DNA from: an uncultured Pelagibacteraceae bacterium
GTDB lineage: Bacteria > Pseudomonadota > Alphaproteobacteria > Pelagibacterales > Pelagibacteraceae
DNA: 45,580 nucleotides
Assembly: GCA_902538525.1 (NCBI GenBank)
Contig: CACBFA010000006.1
Location: forward strand, 1-45,580
Direction: 5' to 3'
Position numbers and translations under genes: made by a program. Below the pieces are notes generated by a model. The model made no database searches, was not told the origin of the DNA, and saw nothing but the letters and a program-made list of their open reading frames with translations. Shown in pieces: positions 9,285 through 45,580 of the stretch. Position 1 is the first letter of the stretch, and every line of letters begins with the position of its first letter.

Positions 9285-9359
9285 TGGAGCGGGCAATGGG
9301 ACTTGAACCCACGACCTTCTCGTTGGCAACGAGACGCTCTACCACTGAGCTATGCCCGC
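9285..9359 (-). tRNA. tRNA-Gly (anticodon GCC)
   Basis: Read on the minus strand from 9359 to 9285 the sequence folds as a full cloverleaf. The acceptor stem is GCGGGCA/TGCCCGC, the D arm contains AGCTCAGTGGTAGAGC, the anticodon stem is TCTCG/CGAGA around the loop TTGCCAA (anticodon GCC), the T arm contains GGTTCAAGTCC, and the discriminator base is T. The CCA end is encoded (9285-9287). There is no intron. Confidence 0.97.
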
Positions 9360-31731: not shown

Positions 31732-32330
31732 TTATAATTACTCACATATTTTTTTATATTTTTAACTGGCAAACCCATAATTGTATCTTCGTCTCCTTCT
31801 ATATTAATAAATAAATTTCTTCCCTCCCCTTCAATTTGGTAAACATTGTAAGAAAATAGGGCCTTATCTGATATTTTTTTCAAATAATTAATTAATTCTT
31901 CATCAGAAAGTGTTTTCATAGTTAAATAAGCTTTGTCAGTATAATTCCAAATCATTGATCCATTTTTAGATATACAAACCGAACTAATTAAAGAGTGCTT
32001 TTTACCATTTAATTTTTTTAAAATACTTAGTGCTTCATCTCTATCTTGTGGTTTTGATATCAATTCTCCATCAAGATCTATTACACTGTCTGCACCCAAA
32101 ACAATAACATCATGAAACTTGTTACTTACTTTGTTTGCTTTTAATTCTGCTAAATTTTTTGATATTATTTCGGGACTTGCGCCTTCTTTTATTAAACTTT
32201 CTTTTACAGGTTCTTCGTCAACATTAGATGGCTGAACATTGCAAATAAAGTCATTTTTTTTCAATATTTCTTCTCTGACCTTGCTTTTTGAAGCTAAAAT
32301 AATCTCAAACATTTTTGTTTTGTATTTCAA
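31728..32330 (-). CDS. maf: Maf-like nucleotide pyrophosphatase
   Basis: A 200-residue Maf/YhdE-type house-cleaning hydrolase of non-canonical NTPs. LASKSKVREEIL at the N-terminus, then VLGADSVIDLDGELISKPQD and the ending DTIMGLPV are hallmarks. It overlaps ppsR by 26 bases and aroE by 4, so the five genes from ppsR to coaE and dnaQ form one transcript reading away from the origin. Confidence 0.94.
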   Translation of the reverse strand: MKYKTKMFEIILASKSKVREEILKKNDFICNVQPSNVDEEPVKESLIKEGASPEIISKNLAELKANKVSNKFHDVIVLGADSVIDLDGELISKPQDRDEALSILKKLNGKKHSLISSVCISKNGSMIWNYTDKAYLTMKTLSDEELINYLKKISDKALFSYNVYQIEGEGRNLFINIEGDEDTIMGLPVKNIKKYVSNYK

Positions 32331-33126
32331 AAATTTTAATTATTGACGCTGCAGTCTCTTCAACAGATTTTCTAGTCACATCAATTACAGGCCATTTATT
32401 TTTCTTAAATAATTTCTTAGATTGATCAACTTCGTCTCTGATTTTTTCTAAATTAGTATAATCAGTAGCTTCATTTTCTTTTAAAGAATTAAGTCTATTC
32501 CTTCGAATATCAAATAATCTTTCTGCTTCCGTTGTTAATCCAATTACACAAATATTTTTTGTTTCTGCAACCCCCTTTGGTATGCTCATTTCATTAACCA
32601 ATGGTATATTAGAAGTTTTTAATCCTTTATTTGCTAAGTAAATTGAGGTTGGGGTTTTGCTGGTTCTGCTAACACCAACCAAGATAATATCAGATTCTAG
32701 TATGTTTTCTGTATTATTTCCATCATCATGATTCATTGTAAATTGTATAGCTTCAATTCTTTTATAGTAGTCTTCATCTAGAACATGTTGAGCACTTGGT
32801 AGATGAGTCGCTTTTTCGTTTAATATTTTAGAAAAATTTAGAATTAGATCTCCCAAAACACCAAAACAAGGAATTTTTTTCTTGTTGGCCTCATCGGCTA
32901 AAAACTTAGCTAGCTTACTATTTACTACAGTATATAAAATTATTGGGCTTTCTTTTTCTTTAGCGCCGTTGAGAATTGATGAAATTTGATTTTCTGTTCT
33001 TGTAAATGAAAATTGATTTAAATCATAATTAAAATTATTGAATTGAGCCTTAAGTGCCATAAATATTCTGTCAAGTGTTTCTCCAGTTGAGTCAGAAATT
33101 AAATAAACTTGGTGTGTATTTTTCAT
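32305..33126 (-). CDS. ppsR: PEP synthase / PPDK regulatory kinase-phosphorylase (DUF299)
   Basis: A 273-residue bifunctional serine/threonine kinase and pyrophosphorylase that switches phosphoenolpyruvate synthase or pyruvate, phosphate dikinase on and off. N-terminal YLISDSTGETLDRI and the P-loop-like GVSRTSKTPTSIYLA are diagnostic. In Caulobacter and Rickettsia this family flanks the replication origin opposite hemE, as here. Neither target enzyme is in the window. Confidence 0.94.
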   Translation of the reverse strand: MKNTHQVYLISDSTGETLDRIFMALKAQFNNFNYDLNQFSFTRTENQISSILNGAKEKESPIILYTVVNSKLAKFLADEANKKKIPCFGVLGDLILNFSKILNEKATHLPSAQHVLDEDYYKRIEAIQFTMNHDDGNNTENILESDIILVGVSRTSKTPTSIYLANKGLKTSNIPLVNEMSIPKGVAETKNICVIGLTTEAERLFDIRRNRLNSLKENEATDYTNLEKIRDEVDQSKKLFKKNKWPVIDVTRKSVEETAASIIKIFEIQNKNV

Positions 33127-33215
33127 GTATAATTTGTCAACAAAGTATTACTAAAATTAGAGATATTTTCAATTAAGCAACAACTGCCAGTTTTTTGTTA
33201 TTTGTGATCATTTAG

Positions 33216-33237
33216 TTAACATATTTATAAATGTTAA
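33216..33237. repeat. Inverted repeat in the origin spacer
   Basis: TTAACAT (33216-33222) and ATGTTAA (33231-33237) form 7-bp arms around an 8-base AT-only centre. It could be a protein-binding site or part of the unwinding region; its purpose is not known. Confidence 0.5.
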
Positions 33238-33241
33238 TATC

Positions 33242-33250
33242 TTATCAACA
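33242..33250 (+). other. DnaA-box-like site
   Basis: TTATCAACA, one mismatch to TTATCCACA (position 6). It lies 4 bases after the inverted repeat. Single-mismatch boxes are common in AT-rich origins, but also occur by chance. Confidence 0.45.
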
Positions 33251-33356
33251 ATTTTATAACTATTTAAGATGATCAAATAAAGCTTCTTTTTCGGGAGTTT
33301 TTTTTCATATTAAATGTATAAAAAGTGAAAAAAGTGTTGAAATTGAGTAATTTACG

Positions 33357-33365
33357 TTATCTACA
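33357..33365 (+). other. DnaA-box-like site
   Basis: TTATCTACA, one mismatch to TTATCCACA (position 6), 43 bases before the hemE start. It may also overlap hemE promoter elements and so tie its expression to DnaA. Confidence 0.45.
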
Positions 33366-33408
33366 AATCATACTAATAATAATTCTAAATATATTATTCT
33401 TATTATAA

Positions 33409-34410
33409 ATGACACCAATAAAAAATTGTATATTAAACAGAGACACAAGCTTTAATCCTATCTGGCTTATGAGGCAAGCAGGAAGATATCTGCCTGAATT
33501 CAGAGAAATTAGAAAAAAAAATACAAATTTTATAAAACTGTGTTTAGATTCAAAGCTATCAGAGGAAATAACACTGCAACCAATTGAACGATTTGATTTT
33601 GATGCTGCAATTATCTTTTCCGATATTCTTATGATTCCATATGGACTTGGGCAAGAAGTAGAATTTAAAAAAAACTTTGGTCCTAATCTTGGGAATATAG
33701 ATTTAGATAAATTTGAAAAATTGAATGATGAATTTTTAACAAATAAATTATCACCCATATATGATTTGTTAAAAAATTTAAGTAAGAACGAAAAAGTTAA
33801 GAATAAAGATTTGATAGGTTTTGTCGGAGCTCCATGGACGTTGTTGGTATATATGATTAATAAAGTTTCGCCTAAAAGTGGTCTTTCTAATTCATTTTTT
33901 AAAAACACTACTTTAATAAATAATCTACTTAATATTTTAGATAAATTTATCAAACTACATATTAAGAACCAAGTAAGAGCCGGGGCTACAATAATACAAA
34001 TATTTGATAGTTGGGCTGGATTAATAAAAACTGATTTTGATAAATATTTATACAAACCAACATTATCTTTGGTTGATTATACAAAAAACCTTGGTGTGCC
34101 TGTAATTTGTTTTCCAAGAGGTATAAAAAACTACGTTGAATTCAGCAAAATTGTAAAACCTAATATGATAAATATAGATTATAATACAGATCCAAAAAAA
34201 TTAATTGATGATATTGATATTCCAATACAAGGAGGGTTAGATCCTAAAATTTTATTAACAGATAGGAATAATTTAAAAACTCAAACAAGAAAATATCTAG
34301 AAATTTTTAACAATCATCCTTATGTATTTAATTTAGGTCATGGTATTCTTCCTGAAACAAAAATTGAAATGGTAGAAGAATTAGTAAGAGTTGTTAGGGA
34401 TTTTAAATGA
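33409..34410 (+). CDS. hemE: Uroporphyrinogen decarboxylase
   Basis: A 333-residue TIM barrel that decarboxylates uroporphyrinogen III to coproporphyrinogen III. The substrate loop WLMRQAGRYLPEFRE is intact, with FSDILMIPYGLGQEV (catalytic Asp), GFVGAPWTLLVYM, IFDSWAGL and GHGILPET. First gene of hemE-hemH-hemG; overlaps hemH by 4 bases (ATGA). Confidence 0.97.
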   Translation: MTPIKNCILNRDTSFNPIWLMRQAGRYLPEFREIRKKNTNFIKLCLDSKLSEEITLQPIERFDFDAAIIFSDILMIPYGLGQEVEFKKNFGPNLGNIDLDKFEKLNDEFLTNKLSPIYDLLKNLSKNEKVKNKDLIGFVGAPWTLLVYMINKVSPKSGLSNSFFKNTTLINNLLNILDKFIKLHIKNQVRAGATIIQIFDSWAGLIKTDFDKYLYKPTLSLVDYTKNLGVPVICFPRGIKNYVEFSKIVKPNMINIDYNTDPKKLIDDIDIPIQGGLDPKILLTDRNNLKTQTRKYLEIFNNHPYVFNLGHGILPETKIEMVEELVRVVRDFK

Positions 34411-36011: not shown

Positions 36012-37283
36012 ATGAATATACAAGAATTAAAAGAAAAAAGTTCAGAAAAGCTAATCACAGAAGCTGAAAATCTCGGAATTGAAAACGCAAGCACATTAAG
36101 AAGACAGGAAATTTATTTTGCAATATTGAAAAAACTAGCAGAGAAAGGCGAGGAAATTACCGGTGGAGGAGTGCTTCAGTTATTGCAAGATGGTTTTGGT
36201 TTTCTTAGAGCAATTGAGTCAAATTATTTACCTGGAGCGGACGATATTTATGTGAGCCCAAATCAAATAAGAAGATTCGGATTACGAACAGGCGATACAG
36301 TAGAGGGACCAATTAGAGCACCTAAAGATGGAGAAAGATATTTTGCTTTACTTCAAGTTAGCAAAATAAACTTTGAAGAAACAGAAAAGTTTAAACATAA
36401 AATTGCTTTTGATAATTTAACTCCACTTTATCCAAACAAACAATTAGTTATGGAAGTGGAAACTATTAAGACGGATAAAAAAATTGATTTAACACCAAGA
36501 TTAATTGATTTAGTAAGTCCAATTGGAAAAGGCCAAAGGTCTTTAATTATATCACCGCCCAAAGCTGGCAAGACCATGATACTACAAAGTATCGCCAATT
36601 CAATTACAGCAAATCATCCTGAATGTTATTTGATGGTTCTTTTAATAGATGAAAGACCAGAGGAAGTTACAGATATGCAGAGAACTGTAAAGGGAGAAGT
36701 TATAAGTTCAACTTTTGATGAACCTGCTCAAAGACATGTGGCTGTAGCAGAAATGGTAATAGAAAAAGCTAAAAGATTGACCGAGCATAAAAAAGATGTA
36801 GTTATTCTTTTAGATTCGATTACTAGGCTGGGAAGAGCGTATAATGCAGTAGTACCAAGCTCTGGTAAAGTATTAACTGGTGGAGTAGATGCCAATGCAC
36901 TTCAAAGGCCTAAAAGATTCTTTGGTGCCGCAAGAAATATTGAGGAAGGTGGATCGTTGACAATTATAGCAACAGCACTAATTGATACAGGTAGCCGAAT
37001 GGATGAAGTAATTTTTGAAGAATTTAAAGGTACTGGAAATAGCGAAACTATATTAGACAGAAAAATTTCAGAAAAAAGAATATTTCCAGCAATAGATATA
37101 ACTAAGTCAGGAACAAGAAGAGAAGAGTTAATATTTGAAAAAAATGATCTTCAAAAAATGAATGTTTTAAGGAGAATAATTGCTCCTATGGGTTCAATGG
37201 ATGCAATTGAATTTATCAATTCAAAATTGAAGGATACCAAAAATAATTCTGACTTCTTTAATTCAATGAACAAACCATCTTAA
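36012..37283 (+). CDS. rho: Transcription termination factor Rho
   Basis: A 423-residue hexameric RNA helicase. The N-terminal helical and cold-shock domains show [16 protein letters not shown] and [21 protein letters not shown]; the ATPase domain has [11 protein letters not shown] near residue 183, the Q-loop region [21 protein letters not shown] and the R-loop [17 protein letters not shown]. The 87-base leader upstream may carry autoregulation, but no clear structure is visible. Its last 4 bases overlap the convergent glycosyltransferase gene. Confidence 0.98.
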
Positions 37284-39214
37284 GATTTAAGAATATCGGT
37301 ATAAATATCTTCCAAATCTTTAGTAAATTTTGTGTTATTGAATAATATACTCTTTGAGCTCTTTTCTTTTACTTTTTTTTTTAATTTTTTAAAGTTGGTA
37401 TGATTCAACCCTAAATTCACTGCTAAATTCTCATAGTCTTTTAAATCTTCAGTTACTAACTCATCGAGATCGTTGGTACTTAAAATACTTGATAAAACTC
37501 TAGATGCAAAACTTTTCCCCTTTAAAGTTATCATGGGTAGACCCATCCTAAGCGCATCACTTCCAGTAGTATGAGCGTTGTAAGGGAATGTATCCAAAAA
37601 CAAATCAGCTAAATTTAATCTTTTTAAATGCTCGCTATGCTCAATACTTGATGCAAATATTATTCTATCTTTGTTTATTTTAACCTTGCTTGCTTCAAGT
37701 AAAATATTCTTTTTTGCATCCTCATTTGTCAAATATAACCATAGCACACTATTTTCCACTCTTTTCAATATTTTCATCCAGGATAGAAAAATTTGTGGAG
37801 TTATCTTGTTATGATTATTAAAACTACAGTAAATGAATTTATTTTCTGGTAGATTAAAATCACCTCTACTATAATTTTTTTTTGAAATTAAATCATTGGT
37901 TGGATTTGATTGATAACAATTTGGTAAATACAAAACTTTTTCTGTATAATTTTTTTGTTCTTTTTCGGGAATAATATTCTTGTCAGTTAAGATATAATCC
38001 ATGAAATGAGCTCCTGTTGTTCCTGGATATCCTAAATAATTTACTTGGTTTCTGCCTACTCTTTCTGCAAACAATCCCATTCTATTTTCAGCTGTATGTC
38101 CACATAAATCCACAGCTATATCAATACCAATTTCTTTACAAAGATTAGCAACATTTTTGTCAGAAATATTGTCAATATAATTAAATTTCTTAAAATATTT
38201 TTTTATTTTATAGTGGCTTTCGCTTCTTGTCTTAAGTCCAAAAGAGAAAGCATAAATTTCAAAATTATTTTTGTCGTGGTTTTTAAATGTATCCTGCATT
38301 AAATGTAAAACAGGGTGATTTGAAAAATCAGGCGAAAAGTAACCTATCTTTGGTATTTTATTTTTAGTTTTTATGATGTTAATTGAATATTTATTATATT
38401 TTTTTTTTATATAATTCTCAGATAATTTTCTATGGAACTCCGGGTTGTCTGATGCACTTAGAAATAAAAATGGATCTGTAATGCTGTTGTTTGTTATAGA
38501 GCTTTCAATAATTTTTTTTTCCTCATCAAAAGTCTCCCAATTACAAATGTTCATATTGAGATGCAGAATTTTACCATTTATAAAGTCGAAATATGGATCT
38601 ATTTCCTTAACTTTCAGATAATTTTTTTTTGCTTCATTATAATTTTTTAATTCCTGGTAACATGTGCCTATATTTAAATACGCATCTAAATAATTTGGGT
38701 TTAGCTGAATTGCTTTTTTATAATTTCTGATTGCTTCTTCTTTATTCCCCATATCATTAAATGTATTCCCAGTATTATTGAAAGCCTCTGAGTAATTTGG
38801 TTTTAATTCAATAGCTTTTTTAAGAAACTGTAATGATTTATCAAAATCTTTTAATTTTCTAAAAATTATTCCTTGGTTATTATAAGCTTGAGCAAAATCT
38901 TTTTTAATTTTTAATGCTTCATTAAAATTTTCTTTTGCTTTTTCAAATTCAAATATTTCCTTAAAAGCGATCCCCAAATTGTTAAAGATCATTGGATTAG
39001 AGGTCTTGCTTTCTAGAGATTTCTTTAAATACTTGATTGAGTTTTCAAACGCTCCACTTTGTAAATAGGCAGTGCCTAAATAAAAGTTAACTTCAGGATC
39101 GTTCTCTTCAATATCAATTATTTTTAAATATGTATTAATTGCAGATATTAAATCTCCATTTTGATGGTACTCTTTTGCTTTTTTTAAAACATCTTTAAAA
39201 TTTTTTTCTATCAC
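37280..39214 (-). CDS. TPR plus SPINDLY/OGT-type glycosyltransferase (GT41)
   Basis: A 644-residue protein: about six tetratricopeptide repeats (residues 5-205) then a GT41 domain. Active-site landmarks match human [14 protein letters not shown] (His300, as OGT His498), [23 protein letters not shown] (Lys470, as OGT Lys842) and [15 protein letters not shown] with the HTT UDP-binding loop. Such enzymes transfer GlcNAc (OGT) or fucose (SPINDLY) to protein Ser/Thr; the TPRs choose targets. It likely acts in the cytosol. It shares a strand with the TPR and sulfotransferase genes behind it. Confidence 0.93.
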
Positions 39215-39222
39215 TTGTAATT

Positions 39223-40749
39223 TTAAATAAAACTTTTATTAAATTCTTTTTTTCTAAAATCTAATTGTTTTATGATCTCATTTTCTATCTGATCAGATTT
39301 TAATACTTTTTCATTTAGTTTTTTATAATCAAGATCATCAATTTTTTTAGCATAATAAATCCAGTTATTTATTATTAATATATCGTTTAAATTAGCTCCT
39401 TTTAAACTAGTTTGTCTTTTAGCATTTAAATCTCTAAGGTATTTTGATTTGTTATTATCAATAATATTTTCTTTTTTTTTCCATTCTTCATTGTATTTCA
39501 TAAAATCATTTGAAGTTTCATCAAGTACTTTATAATTTGGATGCTCAATACCATATTCCGTACAGCCTCTTTTAATTTCAATTTTTAGTTTTCCTTTTAT
39601 ATTTCTATTTAATGCTTTCTCCAAAACACTTTGGGCAGTTTTTGCACTCTCATATCCTGAACAAAATATTAGACCCTTATAAGTTCCGCTGGCAATTGTT
39701 CTAAGTTCAATCATACATTTACGAGAATTATTCTCAGCCAAATCAATATTATCAAAAATAAAATATAGTCTTAGAAAATCTAAAATAGACTTTAATTCGA
39801 CCTGAACTTTATAACATCCAAAGCAATATTGAGGAATTATTTTAAATTGATTGAATACATCAAAGTGTCGGTCACACCTCAAGTTTATAGTATTACTCCT
39901 CCAAATTTGAGTATCATAAAAATTATAATCTTTTAAATATTTATTTACTAATTCATTACAACTTTTGTAAAAGTTTATTACTTCTTGATCAGAAATTTTT
40001 TCAGTAGCACTTGGTATTTTTATTTTTTTTATTTTATTGTTTAAATCTGTCAATGAATTAACCTCTGGATTGGATGGATTTATATATCTTAAAATTTGGA
40101 TAATATTTGTTTTAGTTGTATTATTTTTTGGATCTATCTCTGCCGCTTTACAATAATTTTTAACTGCATCCTCAAGATTTCCTAGATCACTTTGAGCGCT
40201 TGCTAAATTATTATAACCTGATGCATAATCAGGTTTAATATTTAAAACTTTTTTGTACATCTCAATAGCTTTAAGAAATTCACCTTGTTTTAAATAAAAA
40301 TTACCTAAATTATTGCAAACAGGTAAAAAATTATTGTTAATATTGTATGCTTTATTTAGAAAAAATTTAGCTTTTTCAAAATCTTCAATTGACATATAAG
40401 ATGATCCAAGACTGTTTAGAACTTCAATGTCATTACTGTTATTTTCATAAGCTACTCGAAAATATGTAATAGCATCTTTTTTTTTATTTAAATTTGTACA
40501 GATTAGACCTAAAATTACATTTGCGTTACGATTTTTATAATCGATCTTGATTATTTTCTTTAAAAAAATTTCACTTTTACTGTAATTTTTATTTTGGAAA
40601 TTCATTAAACCACAATAAAATAAAGCCTCAATATTATTTGGGTAGATCTTTAATACTGAATTAAATTCTTCTTCAGATTTTTTGAAATTTTTTTCTTTAA
40701 AATAACGAATTCCATTATTAAATGAATTTTCAAAATTATTATTCGGCAT
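39223..40749 (-). CDS. TPR protein with unrecognised cysteine-bearing C-terminal domain
   Basis: A 508-residue protein. Residues 1-210 hold about six tetratricopeptide repeats, close in style to those of the glycosyltransferase next door. Residues 250-508 are a domain I do not recognise, with seven cysteines: 264, 292 (RCDRHFDVF), 309 and 312 (QYCFGCYKV, a CxxC), 345 (KCMIEL), 363 (FCSGY) and 396 (RGCTEYG). The arrangement could bind a metal or iron-sulfur cluster. No signal peptide. It lies 8 bases upstream of the glycosyltransferase, so the two are co-expressed and may share targets. Confidence 0.82.
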   Translation of the reverse strand: MPNNNFENSFNNGIRYFKEKNFKKSEEEFNSVLKIYPNNIEALFYCGLMNFQNKNYSKSEIFLKKIIKIDYKNRNANVILGLICTNLNKKKDAITYFRVAYENNSNDIEVLNSLGSSYMSIEDFEKAKFFLNKAYNINNNFLPVCNNLGNFYLKQGEFLKAIEMYKKVLNIKPDYASGYNNLASAQSDLGNLEDAVKNYCKAAEIDPKNNTTKTNIIQILRYINPSNPEVNSLTDLNNKIKKIKIPSATEKISDQEVINFYKSCNELVNKYLKDYNFYDTQIWRSNTINLRCDRHFDVFNQFKIIPQYCFGCYKVQVELKSILDFLRLYFIFDNIDLAENNSRKCMIELRTIASGTYKGLIFCSGYESAKTAQSVLEKALNRNIKGKLKIEIKRGCTEYGIEHPNYKVLDETSNDFMKYNEEWKKKENIIDNNKSKYLRDLNAKRQTSLKGANLNDILIINNWIYYAKKIDDLDYKKLNEKVLKSDQIENEIIKQLDFRKKEFNKSFI

Positions 40750-40782
40750 ATACCATAAAACAAATATCCAAATTAACTTAAT

Positions 40783-41619
40783 TTATAAGTATCCTAATTC
40801 TTTCATCTCTTTTGTAAATTCGCCTTCAATTTTTTCTTTGATGTCATCTCTTAATAATTTTTTCCATCTGTTGTTAAATCCAAGATTAAAAAAAACCTTT
40901 TTCTTTTTATCTTTCTTTGAAAATAAAGCCTCATCGAAACCTTCATTTTTTTCTTTATTTTTTAGAACACTAAAGTTAGTTGTTTCAATAGCTCTTTCTA
41001 ATTTTTCTTTATCAACTCTTTCTGTTCTACTTAACAAAGTATTAGTGAATACGATTATATCTCTAAATGTTTCATACTTTTCTTTTTCAAAATCCTCATA
41101 TCTTATAACAAGTTTTCTAAAATTTTTGGACTTACACCATGAATTGTAATGACTAGACCAATTACTAAGTAGTACCCATGTTCTATAATCTTTACTGTCT
41201 GGATCCATCGTATTTTTGTGAGGGTCTGTTAAGAATTTTAAAGCTTCATCTAAATTTAACTCGAAGTGATTCATTACAGATGTAATTACATTTCTTGGAT
41301 CTCTGACAATATAAATTCCCCCTAGCGTATACTCAGGTGAAGTAAATGGCTGCCCTTTATAGAAGCCTAAACAACTATGAGTTTTTAAGAATAAAGCTTT
41401 TTTTTTCTCCTTAATTTTTTTCTGTCCTAATATCCAATTCCTCGATGCTTCATCAACATTTTCGAATTCACTTTCAAAAAAATCATTAGATGGAAATTGT
41501 TTTATATTTTTGAGTAATCCAAAATTAAAATCTCCGTCTTTGGAAAAATAGTATGCTGATAGCAAAGACCTAACATAGGTATTTCCACTTTTGGGGTATG
41601 ATGCAATCCAAATAATCAT
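40783..41619 (-). CDS. Sulfotransferase family protein
   Basis: A 278-residue PAPS-dependent sulfotransferase of the type-1 (aryl/carbohydrate) fold. The 5'-phosphosulfate loop is YPKSGNTYVRSLL (residues 7-19); the 3'-phosphate motif is YIVRDPRNVITSVMNHF; LVIRYEDFEKEKYETF and the ending FNNRWKKLL agree with the family. Start at ATG 41619-41617 because the family begins just before the YPKSGNT loop; the 68-codon upstream extension overlaps mnmE on the other strand and is rejected. The acceptor is unknown; a glycan or protein made by the TPR and GT41 neighbours is one option. Confidence 0.9.
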   Translation of the reverse strand: MIIWIASYPKSGNTYVRSLLSAYYFSKDGDFNFGLLKNIKQFPSNDFFESEFENVDEASRNWILGQKKIKEKKKALFLKTHSCLGFYKGQPFTSPEYTLGGIYIVRDPRNVITSVMNHFELNLDEALKFLTDPHKNTMDPDSKDYRTWVLLSNWSSHYNSWCKSKNFRKLVIRYEDFEKEKYETFRDIIVFTNTLLSRTERVDKEKLERAIETTNFSVLKNKEKNEGFDEALFSKKDKKKKVFFNLGFNNRWKKLLRDDIKEKIEGEFTKEMKELGYL

Positions 41620-41652
41620 AGAAAAATTTATATATTTAAACACAATACTAGC

Positions 41653-41658
41653 TATAAT
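41653..41658 (+). promoter_or_regulatory. Candidate -10 element of mnmE
   Basis: TATAAT, a perfect -10 hexamer, lies 7 bases before the mnmE ATG in the 46-base divergent spacer. No good -35 is seen. If used, the mnmE transcript would be nearly leaderless, as suggested for hslV. Confidence 0.35.
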
Positions 41659-41665
41659 TAGTTTA

Positions 41666-42997
41666 ATGACAATATACGCACTATCATCTGGACCAGGTAT
41701 AGCAGGAATTTCAGTTATAAGGGTTTCAGGGTCAGCTACTAAAGAGGTAATATCAAAACTAACAAATAAAAATTTACCAATACCAAGAATAGCTACAAGG
41801 CGAAAATTCAATAAAATCAACAAAAATCAGTTAATTGATGAGGGAATTTTAATATGGTTTCCTGCCCCTCAAAGCTATACAGGTGAGGATATGGCTGAAT
41901 TTCACGTGCATGGTAGCAAAGCAGTTGTTGAAGCTATGCATATGTCAATTTCGAATATTGATGGTTGTAGATTGGCTGAACCAGGTGAATTTACAAAAAT
42001 TGCTTTTCAAAACGGAAAAATAAACTTGTTAGAAGCGGAGAGTGTTGCTGATTTAATATCCTCAGAAACTGAAATTCAAAGACAACAGGCTGTCATGATT
42101 ATGTCAGGCAAAAGCTCAAAAAAGTTTAATTATCTTAGAGATAAACTTTTAAAAATTTTATCAAATGTTGAAGCTAAAATAGATTTTCCGGAAGAGGATT
42201 TGCCTGATAATATTTTGAGGAGTATTCATCAAGGTATAAAAAGCATTAGAGAAGAAATTGAAAAAATTTTAGATGATCAAAAAATTGGAGAAAGAATAAG
42301 AGAAGGATTTAAAATTGCTATTATTGGCCCAACTAATGCTGGCAAATCTTCTCTGCTAAATTATTTGTCAAAAAGGGAGGTGTCAATAGTTTCAGAAACT
42401 GCAGGAACAACTAGAGACGTTATAGAGGCGCATATTAATTTAGATGGCTATCCTGTAATAATCTCTGATACTGCAGGAATAAGAGACTCCAAGGATGAAA
42501 TTGAAAAAAAGGGAATAAAATTAGCTTTAAAAAGTGCAGAAAATGCAGATTTGAATTTAATCGTAGTAGAACCTAAAAGTATTGAAATAAAAGGCTTTTT
42601 GACTAATACACTGTCAAAAAATGCTATAATTGTAGTAAATAAAATGGATTTAGGAGTTAATAAATCTAATAGTGAAATAAAAAAATATGATCCAATTTAT
42701 ATATCAATCAAAGAAGAAAAAAATTTAGATAAACTTATTAATGTAATTAAAGAATATTTAAAAAATAAATTTATTTCATCAAAAGATATCTTTATTACAA
42801 GACAAAGACATAGATTTAATCTTGAACAATGCGTTAAGAATTTGAAAAATTTTGAGCAAAAAAAATTAGATAAAGACTTCGATAAGGCAGCGGAAGATTT
42901 AAGATTAGCAACTAGATATCTAGGGATGATTGTAGGAAAAGTTGATGTCGAAGAAATATTAGGATCAATTTTTAGTGATTTTTGTATAGGTAAATAA
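41666..42997 (+). CDS. mnmE: tRNA modification GTPase MnmE
   Basis: A 443-residue GTPase that with MnmG modifies U34 of certain tRNAs (carboxymethylaminomethyl group). N-terminal formyl-THF domain starts MTIYALSSGPGIAGISVIR; the G domain has G1 GPTNAGKSS near residue 221, AGTTRDV and DTAGIRDS; the C-terminal FCIGK carries the catalytic Cys of the CxGK motif. The family start supports ATG 41666 over an open-frame ATG 25 codons upstream. Confidence 0.97.
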   Translation: MTIYALSSGPGIAGISVIRVSGSATKEVISKLTNKNLPIPRIATRRKFNKINKNQLIDEGILIWFPAPQSYTGEDMAEFHVHGSKAVVEAMHMSISNIDGCRLAEPGEFTKIAFQNGKINLLEAESVADLISSETEIQRQQAVMIMSGKSSKKFNYLRDKLLKILSNVEAKIDFPEEDLPDNILRSIHQGIKSIREEIEKILDDQKIGERIREGFKIAIIGPTNAGKSSLLNYLSKREVSIVSETAGTTRDVIEAHINLDGYPVIISDTAGIRDSKDEIEKKGIKLALKSAENADLNLIVVEPKSIEIKGFLTNTLSKNAIIVVNKMDLGVNKSNSEIKKYDPIYISIKEEKNLDKLINVIKEYLKNKFISSKDIFITRQRHRFNLEQCVKNLKNFEQKKLDKDFDKAAEDLRLATRYLGMIVGKVDVEEILGSIFSDFCIGK

Positions 42998-43073: not shown

Positions 43074-44945
43074 ATGAAAAATGAATTAATTTTTGATGTA
43101 GTAGTGGTAGGTGGTGGCCACGCAGGATGTGAAGCTGCAGCGGCATCAGCTAGATTAGGTGTTAACACTGCTCTATTCACACACAGATTTGATACCATCG
43201 GAGAGATGTCATGTAATCCAGCAATTGGTGGATTAGGCAAAGGACATTTAGTTAGAGAAATAGATGCACTTGATGGTGTAATGGGAGAAGTGGCAGATAA
43301 ATCAGGTATTCAATTTAGACTACTAAATAGGAGTAGAGGTCCAGCTGTAAGAGGACCTAGAACACAAAGTGATAGATCGCTATATAAAAAATTTATGCAA
43401 GAAAAACTTGTAAAGTATTGTAATTTAAGTATTTTTTCTGATCCTGTAATTAGGTTTGAATTTAAAAATAATGATATAATTGGTTTTATCACACAATCGG
43501 GTAAATTGGTTAAATCTTCTAAGCTAATTTTAACGACTGGCACATTTTTAAATGGATTGATACATATTGGTGAAGAAAAAACACCTGCTGGAAGATTTCA
43601 TGAAAAACCTTCAACAGGTTTAAGCGAACAATTAGAAAAGTATTATTTTAAAATTGGGAGACTAAAAACTGGAACTCCCCCGAGGCTTGATGCTCGTACT
43701 ATAAATTTTGAAAATTTGGAGGAGCAGTATGCGGATGACGATCCATATTTTTTTTCATTTCTTACAAAAAAAAATCTAAACAAGCAAATCTCATGTCGCA
43801 TGACATACACAAATGAAGCTGTTCATAATATTATTTCTAAAAATTTAAAACGAAGTGCAATGTATTCTGGGAGCATAAAAGGAGTAGGACCAAGATACTG
43901 TCCATCAATAGAAGATAAAATAAAAAAATTTGCAGATAAGCAGAGGCATCAAATTTTTTTAGAGCCAGAGGGATTAAATGACCATACAATTTACCCAAAT
44001 GGAATTTCTACCTCATTACCAGTATCCGTGCAGGAAGAAATATGTAGTAAAATCAATGGTTTAGAAGATGTCAAAATTTTAAGACCTGGATATGCTATTG
44101 AATATGATTATGTTGATCCTAGAGAGCTTTTATTAACATTAGAGACAAAAAAAATAAATAATCTTTATCTCGCTGGTCAGATTAATGGAACTACAGGATA
44201 CGAAGAGGCAGCAGCTCAAGGATTAGTCGCTGGAACAAATGCAGCTTTAGCTTTAAAAAAAAAAGAACCATTTATTTTAGATCGATCAGAAGCCTACATC
44301 GGAGTTATGATAGATGATTTGGTAACCAAAGGTGTTGCAGAACCATATAGAATGTTTACATCAAGAGCGGAGTACAGACTATCTCTTAGGTCAGACAATG
44401 CTGACGTAAGGTTAACTCAAAAAGGTATAGATATAGGATTAGTTTTAAGTGAAAGAAAAAGAGTATTTAAAGAGAAATATAGGCAATTATCAAAAATACA
44501 GTCTAAAATGGACAAATTAATGATCACACCGTCAAAAGTATCTAAATTTGGTGTTAATATTGCAAAAGACGGAATTAGTCGTTCAGCAAATCAAATATTA
44601 GGCCAAAAATTAGTAAATATGTGTAAAATTAGAGAAATTTGGCCAGAAATTAAATATGTTTCACGTGAAATTGACGAACAATTGGAAATCAATTCACATT
44701 ATAAAGGTTATTTAAAGAAGCAAAAAGCAGATATCTTAGCATTTAAAAGAGATGAAAACCTTTTAATACCAGGAAATTTGGATTATGATAGTTTTTCAGG
44801 GTTATCTAATGAAGTAAAATCAAAATTTAAAGAAATAAAGCCCAAAACAATGGGTCAAGCGTTGCGAATTGATGGCATTACTCCTGCTGCAGTCTATATT
44901 TTGTTGTCTCATCTTAAAAGAAAGTCTATTAAGCATATAGCTTGA
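43074..44945 (+). CDS. mnmG: tRNA uridine modification enzyme MnmG (GidA)
   Basis: A 623-residue FAD/NADH enzyme, partner of MnmE. FAD motif GGGHAG (residues 13-18), [53 protein letters not shown] and the ending [16 protein letters not shown]. Near the 3' end the codons for YVSREIDEQ (44654 onward) embed a parS-like sequence. Its stop overlaps the TTG start of rsmG. Confidence 0.98.
44657..44672. other. parS-like centromere site within mnmG
   Basis: TGTTTCACGTGAAATT matches the ParB-binding consensus TGTTTCACGTGAAACA at 14 of 16 positions, including the whole TTTCACGTGAAA core. It encodes Val-Ser-Arg-Glu of MnmG. It lies 332 bases before the perfect site in rsmG. Confidence 0.7.
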
Positions 44946-45580
44946 TTGATTCGTATATTTATAAAATTGATAAGACTATAGGTTTAAATGTTTCACGTGA
45001 AACATTAAAAGATCTTGAAGAATATTCAAAAGCTATAATAAAAAAAAATAAAGATATAAATTTAATAAGTAAAACAACAGAAAATTCAATAAAACAAAGG
45101 CATATTGAGGATAGCGCACAAACTATTGAATTTATTGATAAAAATGATATCAATGTATGTACTGATTTAGGTTCAGGAGCTGGATTACCCGGTATAGTTT
45201 TAGGTATTTTGATGAAACCAAAAAAACAAGCATTTAAGCTAATTTTTTACGAGAAAAGTTATCATAAGAGTATTTTCTTAAAAGAAATGATAAAAAAATT
45301 TAATTTAAACTCAGAAATTCGACAAAAAAATATTTTTGAAGAAAAAAATTTGAATACTGACGTAATTATTTCCCGTGCATTTAAACCTTTACCAGTAATT
45401 TTTCAAATCGCACAAAATAATTTTAAAAATTTTAAGTATATAATTTTATTCTTAGGGAAGTCCGGCAAAAAAATTTTAGATGATGCACTTAAGTCTTGGA
45501 CATTTGATTATGAAGAAAAAAAAAGTTTAACTAGTAAAGAGTCTGTAGTTATAAAAATTTCAAATTTGAGAAAAAAAAAT
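44942..45580 (+). CDS. rsmG: 16S rRNA m7G527 methyltransferase RsmG (GidB), 3' end cut
   Basis: Frame open to the window edge (213 codons, near full length for a family of about 200-215). The SAM-binding motif is [15 protein letters not shown], preceded by [25 protein letters not shown] and [12 protein letters not shown], all typical of RsmG. No ATG exists before the conserved region; the first in-frame start after the upstream stop (44930-44932) is TTG 44942, overlapping the mnmG stop as TTGA. So translation coupled to mnmG from TTG is the best reading. Confidence 0.92.
44989..45004. other. parS centromere site within rsmG
   Basis: TGTTTCACGTGAAACA is a perfect 16-bp palindromic parS consensus, the sequence bound by chromosomal ParB. 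It lies inside the rsmG reading frame, encoding Val-Ser-Arg-Glu-Thr, about 11.6 kb from the proposed origin and just ahead of where parA and parB normally follow rsmG. Confidence 0.92.

Follow-up and report, generated by a model that had tools for sequence, protein, structure and literature searches.

A probable chromosomal replication origin in the ppsR-hemE spacer of a SAR11-type genome

The closest described systems are the chromosomal origins of other Alphaproteobacteria. The Caulobacter origin was mapped at the divergent genes ppsR (COG1806) and hemE, and the available part of PMC1914354 gives the same boundary for Rickettsia; both origins, Cori of Caulobacter crescentus and ori of Rickettsia prowazekii, contain several DnaA boxes and are A+T-rich. 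The same source describes, for Wolbachia and Ehrlichia, a hemE-linked origin with few boxes in which the ppsR side is replaced (hemE/COG1253). A further point of comparison is the basal unwinding system (BUS), known from Bacillus subtilis and elsewhere among bacteria, which the available part of PMC8287927 presents as a DnaA box that has three or more NAN trios, all on one strand, within 16 bp and is oriented into an A+T-rich stretch. For SAR11, the accessible sections of PMC9516812 place the origin and terminus by GC skew, and those of PMC9589681 place the terminus by a coverage minimum, in neither case by a sequence element. Among the matches listed in the open literature, DoriC aside, there was no description of a SAR11 oriC sequence; one may be given in the supplementary data of the BUS survey.

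The window, by which we mean the whole stretch of 45,580 nucleotides that was analysed, is contig C6 of a 43-contig assembly of 957,889 bp with a completeness of 79%. In the window, ppsR and hemE diverge across a 282-bp spacer, as follows:

33127-33408, no strand: candidate oriC, the ppsR-hemE spacer (282 bp, 80% A+T)
32305-33126, minus strand: flanking gene ppsR, DUF299 kinase/pyrophosphorylase (PF03618, E 3e-92)
33409-34410, plus strand: flanking gene hemE, uroporphyrinogen decarboxylase (PF01208, E 5.7e-80)

The original prediction had placed a probable oriC here, at the position known from Caulobacter and Rickettsia (PMC1914354, in its available part), and the location is indeed that of the known alphaproteobacterial rule. 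The closest named relatives of hemE are Pelagibacteraceae, in agreement with the SAR11-type assignment. On the ppsR side, maf comes after ppsR; the hemE side continues with hemH, a flavodoxin-domain gene, rho, mnmE and mnmG, and then parS. Near the candidate origin, the stretch between rho and mnmE (37280-41823) encodes a sulfotransferase and two TPR proteins, one of which carries a glycosyltransferase-41 domain. The window has one tRNA (9285-9359), and the spacer gave no Rfam match at gathering scores. With ORFs of at least 60 aa, the spacer is, as had been claimed, the largest clearly internal intergenic gap; the gaps at 1-282 and 45154-45580 were left out of this ranking, since ORFs running off the window ends are uncalled. 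A nominal 441-bp gap (41150-41590) was rejected as a larger spacer, as it lies inside the sulfotransferase ORF (40783-41823). The A+T content of the spacer (80%) is above the genome level, with 62-78% in 2-kb steps of the window and a mean of 73% in other SAR11 intergenic regions.

To describe the DnaA boxes of the spacer, we list them below, the percentages being the share of 42 spacers of the same genus with a box of at most one mismatch at that position. Two of these 9-mers, TTATCAACA (33242) and TTATCTACA (33357), differ from TTATCCACA at a single position.

33135-33143, minus strand: left DnaA box, TTGTTGACA here (90%; exact in 67%)
33213-33221, plus strand: middle box 1, TAGTTAACA, two mismatches (79%); left half of an inverted repeat
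33232-33240, minus strand: middle box 2, ATATTAACA, one mismatch (38%); right half of the inverted repeat
33242-33250, plus strand: middle box 3, TTATCAACA, exact TTATNNACA (19%)
33315-33323, minus strand: right-cluster box, TTTTATACA, one mismatch, 2 bp off the aligned column (33313)
33324-33332, minus strand: right-cluster box, TTTTTCACT, two mismatches (69%)
33335-33343, minus strand: right-cluster box, ATTTCAACA, two mismatches (43%)
33357-33365, plus strand: hemE-proximal DnaA box, TTATCTACA (95%; exact in 81%)

In relatives the left box is frequently TTATAAACA or TTATTAACA, middle box 2 is TTATTCACA in three genomes (G027, G039, G011), and the aligned column at 33313 is a box in 71% of the 42 genus spacers (at most one mismatch). 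The inverted repeat mentioned in the original prediction, TTAACAT-8 nt-ATGTTAA at 33216-33237, is present and coincides in the alignment with two mutually facing box positions; it was read off the sequence, and a repeat search (at least 9 nt) gave others. Taken alone, the window carries a weak box signal. One-mismatch boxes in the whole window are hardly above chance (18 against 15.2 expected), and the two exact TTATNNACA boxes of the spacer equal the maximum found elsewhere. The seven one-mismatch boxes in the spacer compare with 4.3 in shuffles, a count reached by 14% of shuffles and 1.8% of sliding windows. A reading from this single sequence therefore rests mainly on gene context, and a box cluster above chance emerges by comparison but not in the window by itself.

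The comparison covered the spacers lying upstream of hemE in 49 Pelagibacterales genomes, the window's own included, of which 42 belong to its genus and seven do not, together with 27 spacers of named SAR11 records, including one of Fonsibacter; hemE was found in 52 of 61 genomes and 30 loci were taken. Three further genomes (G065-G067) stand outside the 49-spacer counts and were included in a 52-spacer comparison of box and trios. By homology, a divergent ppsR borders 46 of the 49 spacers, at 261-321 bp, and the remaining three (G061-G063, family f2) face maf. All 27 named SAR11 spacers have a divergent ppsR; among the named loci, ppsR was divergent in 63 of the 63 with the gene in reach, and 17 of 80 had no ppsR in reach. 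The SAR11 spacers (261-321 bp) contrast in length with those of 36 other Alphaproteobacteria (307-859 bp).

Conservation of the boxes among relatives, a check proposed with the original prediction, gave a signal far beyond chance. Pairs of genus spacers share a median identity of only 54% (n=42), and their box positions are still fixed: alignment columns 237, 9, 87, 193 and 204 are a box (at most one mismatch) in 95, 90, 79, 71 and 69% of the 42, compared with 7% at the 95th percentile of box frequency over all columns and strands. Exact TTATNNACA occurs 151 times in the 49 spacers, where 16.1 are expected (the maf-facing spacers supply four of these), 96 times against 9.2 in the 27 named SAR11 spacers and 20 times against 1.4 in the 36 spacers of other Alphaproteobacteria. 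In 138 other SAR11 intergenic regions there was no excess (12 against 11.5 expected). Because relatedness inflates box counts, we also thinned the genus set, and the enrichment persisted at less than 75% identity (52 against 6.5, 19 spacers), less than 65% (25 against 3.5, 11 spacers) and less than 60% (19 against 2.9, nine spacers). The boxes are mostly TTATNNACA and not TTATCCACA, unlike those of the Caulobacter and Rickettsia origins. The description of the origin as minimal held in part: the boxes themselves depart from the E. coli optimum, yet up to eight box positions recur.

The hemE edge of the spacer shows an additional, oriented arrangement, in which TTATCTACA is followed by a 1-base gap, seven triplets (two of them CTA) and A+T-rich DNA up to hemE:

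33367-33387, plus strand: DnaA-trio run of seven NTN triplets, ATC ATA CTA ATA ATA ATT CTA, with the trios proper on the complementary strand
33388-33408, no strand: A+T-rich DNA that reaches the hemE start, a putative unwinding element

The triplets after the hemE-proximal box have a central T (CTA, ATA, ATT), which is the complement of the DnaA-trios in the available part of PMC8287927. By the definition given there, the window contains a box of at most two mismatches and, after a gap of at most 16 bp, at least three NAN trios. As in the known BUS, the SAR11 box is accompanied by at least three trios on one strand, leading into an A+T-rich stretch; it differs in that the trios are mostly of the ATA/ATT type with few CTA, and inspection by eye suggests that any second box or G+C-rich spacer is weak or absent in the window's genus. 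Our scan rule was stricter than the published one, requiring at least one CTA, and treated both strands and shuffles alike. Under this rule the box-trio points toward hemE in 33 of the 49 spacers and toward the opposite gene in one, against 4.4% in shuffles, and 16 of the 49 failed the strict rule of contiguous trios. The named SAR11 set gave 15 of 27 toward hemE and one of 27 away. Downstream triplets accompany the box in 36 of 52 spacers, compared with 38 of 550 other exact boxes in sampled DNA, the first count being slightly biased in favour of the spacers by the choice of the better trio among equally good boxes. A strict box-trio string matched 14 of the 61 genus genomes, once each and always 49-53 bp upstream of hemE, and nothing anywhere in the other 47; as the string was composed from known spacers, only its absence elsewhere is informative. 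A reversed-string control matched two of the 61 genomes. We considered a class-wide box-trio and rejected it: with the strict rule, the other Alphaproteobacteria gave two of 36 toward hemE and two of 36 away, and the claim is kept to Pelagibacterales. Several other Alphaproteobacteria show, by eye, CTA repeats between a box and hemE.

Lineages with changed neighbours bear on the first alternative, namely that the spacer is only the divergent promoter region of ppsR and hemE, its motifs being promoter or DnaA-regulated transcription sites, and that the origin lies elsewhere nearby. In genus g3 (G065 and G066), neither hemE nor hemH was found within 40 kb around the locus, and ppsR is separated from rho by a spacer of 353 bp (L162:6329-6681 in G066, L164:11649-12001 in G065). 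Both the left box, next to ppsR, and a TTATAAACA box are retained in this ppsR-rho spacer; the TTATAAACA box is followed in G065 by CTAATAATA, and in G066 the triplets are interrupted. The origin thus seems to stay with ppsR in this genus. In family f2 (G063, G062 and G061; loci L084, L085 and L086), the gene facing hemE is maf and not ppsR, and G061 has a TTATAAACA box with a striking run of four CTA triplets, CTACTACTACTA; under the rule applied to G061, G062 and G063 have no CTA run, with one and zero exact boxes respectively. Either side can therefore change in SAR11 relatives, compared with the ppsR side in Wolbachia and Ehrlichia, and the element is not equally clear in all lineages. In the locus L165 (G067:C1:357001-361500), the hemE match falls in two segments, which suggests a frameshift or an assembly error. 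Since boxes are kept beside ppsR without hemE in g3, and a box and CTA run without the ppsR neighbour in G061, the element is not simply the promoter of either gene. The two genes do diverge in the window, DnaA also regulates transcription, and promoter-like hexamers occur at 33000-33500; their number, however, is near chance (seven against 5.0), up to eight box positions and an oriented trio exceed what promoters need, and the box excess is absent from the 138 other SAR11 intergenic regions. We consider a promoter-only role improbable.

The position of parS provides independent coordinates for the origin region:

44989-45004, no strand: perfect parS, TGTTTCACGTGAAACA, 11.6 kb from the spacer and the sole parS at up to one mismatch in the assembly

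The parS sites had been announced at about 11 kb, and correspond to this exact copy and to a two-mismatch copy at 44657. The latter (44657-44672) lies inside mnmG, 332 bp before the perfect site, and G070 has a parS-like pair (611767 and 612099) with the identical 332-bp spacing. In seven of seven single-contig genomes of the genus, a parS (at most one mismatch) lies 7.1-9.6 kb from hemE, so the spacer is close to parS. In each of these seven (G012, G069, G070, G071, G073, G078 and G079), dnaA also lies toward the hemE side, at a near-constant 60-64 kb from the candidate oriC. Unlike the window's genus, three genomes from other genera (G064, G066 and G067) have parS on the ppsR side, 17-20 kb from the spacer; this switch suggests an inversion or rearrangement around the origin.

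GC skew is compatible with an origin here, but it is imprecise. Two-arm fits in four complete relatives, sampled at 28-36%, placed the best origins at -32, -190, +33 and -46 kb from hemE; three of the four thus fall within 50 kb, and the G070 fit lies 190 kb away, so that this check, also proposed at the outset, is blunt and does not refute the prediction. Skew in these relatives mostly tracks gene direction, which explains the looseness of the fit. In G071, hemE is just outside the support range of the fit (an ad hoc range). G012 has a broad cumulative skew minimum, spread over 1.23-1.31 Mb, and its hemE lies at 1.26 Mb; strand correction of the third-codon-position skew gave no clear arms in this genome. 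A dif search with an approximate consensus gave only three-mismatch matches, in four of 11 genomes. Local skew in the window was rejected as evidence: its sign switches at about 33-34 kb, and also at about 18, 24 and 41 kb, tracking gene direction. Among box clusters in samples of 397-477 kb, the spacer is at the top in G071 and G078 and tied in G012; in the G070 sample it is not among the clusters, and of the two clusters outside the spacer, the one inspected falls inside an ORF.

An origin at dnaA, 60-64 kb from the spacer, or at another site near parS would agree with skew fits that permit tens of kb either way, and many bacteria initiate beside dnaA. We regard it as very improbable, given that the 12 dnaA loci (2.4-3.5 kb) have only 0-3 exact boxes each, scattered, and that parS is closer to ppsR-hemE than dnaA is. 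A box cluster can titrate DnaA, but a titration or DARS/datA-like site in place of the start site itself is hardly credible, as a trio of fixed orientation beside an A+T-rich stretch, the gene context of the Caulobacter origin and the proximity of parS fit an origin better.

The gene context, the proximity of parS, the conserved box positions, the oriented box-trio and the boxes beside ppsR without hemE make it very probable, at about 0.92, that the ppsR-hemE spacer is the chromosomal replication origin, as the original prediction proposed. From the sequences compared we infer DnaA binding, opening and initiation at the spacer in the following way. DnaA would bind the mostly imperfect boxes (TTATNNACA) spread over the spacer and, anchored on the hemE-proximal box (33357-33365), would start a filament along the DnaA-trio strand next to it (33367-33387). 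The filament would stretch and open the A+T-rich stretch before hemE, leading to helicase loading, and ParB on parS, 11.6 kb away, would then segregate the new origins. The assembly encodes one DnaA, whose domain IV aligns with that of E. coli DnaA (1j1v) and keeps RPRQ and RDHTT, the residues which we take to contact the box.

A further apparent difference from the Caulobacter and Rickettsia origins concerns regulation. None of the four OmpR-type regulators of the window's genome, which is 79% complete, reaches the cut-off of the CtrA model (best shown, 129 against 350 bits), a model whose name suggests a Rhodobacter-type training set; this is in line with the available part of PMC2877005, which reports Pelagibacter without ctrA. 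In 11 of 11 genomes checked there is a GcrA (PF07750) and a methylase of the family to which CcrM belongs (PF01555), and a CcrM homologue in SAR11 is mentioned in the available part of PMC3973325. The CcrM site GANTC is scarce in SAR11 spacers (3 against 8.7 expected in the 49 spacers, 1 against 4.3 in the other set; small counts, with kinship ignored), in contrast to Caulobacter, whose origin has several (PMC3973325, in its available part). With kinship likewise ignored, GANTC is less scarce in other SAR11 intergenic DNA (47 against 58.5) and is enriched in other alphaproteobacterial ppsR-hemE spacers (132 against 75.3). CtrA-like TTAA-N7-TTAA sites were clearly raised in one spacer set only (30 against 12.8 expected, and 10 against 7.6 in the other) and are not claimed as a real feature. 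We offer as a speculation, and a doubtful one, that the SAR11 origin might have been stripped to DnaA control, with degenerate boxes kept in register and a single BUS next to hemE, with CtrA missing and with GANTC lost from oriC despite GcrA and a CcrM-family methylase, so that initiation would be uncoupled from the methylation/CtrA clock of other Alphaproteobacteria.

The details that appear fresh are the degenerate in-register boxes, the BUS-like hemE edge, the apparent lack of CtrA and the scarcity of CcrM (GANTC) sites. An origin placed at the level of bases, with a recognisable signature, could anchor estimates of origin and terminus, fragmented genomes included, and makes it testable how an alphaproteobacterium without CtrA times initiation.
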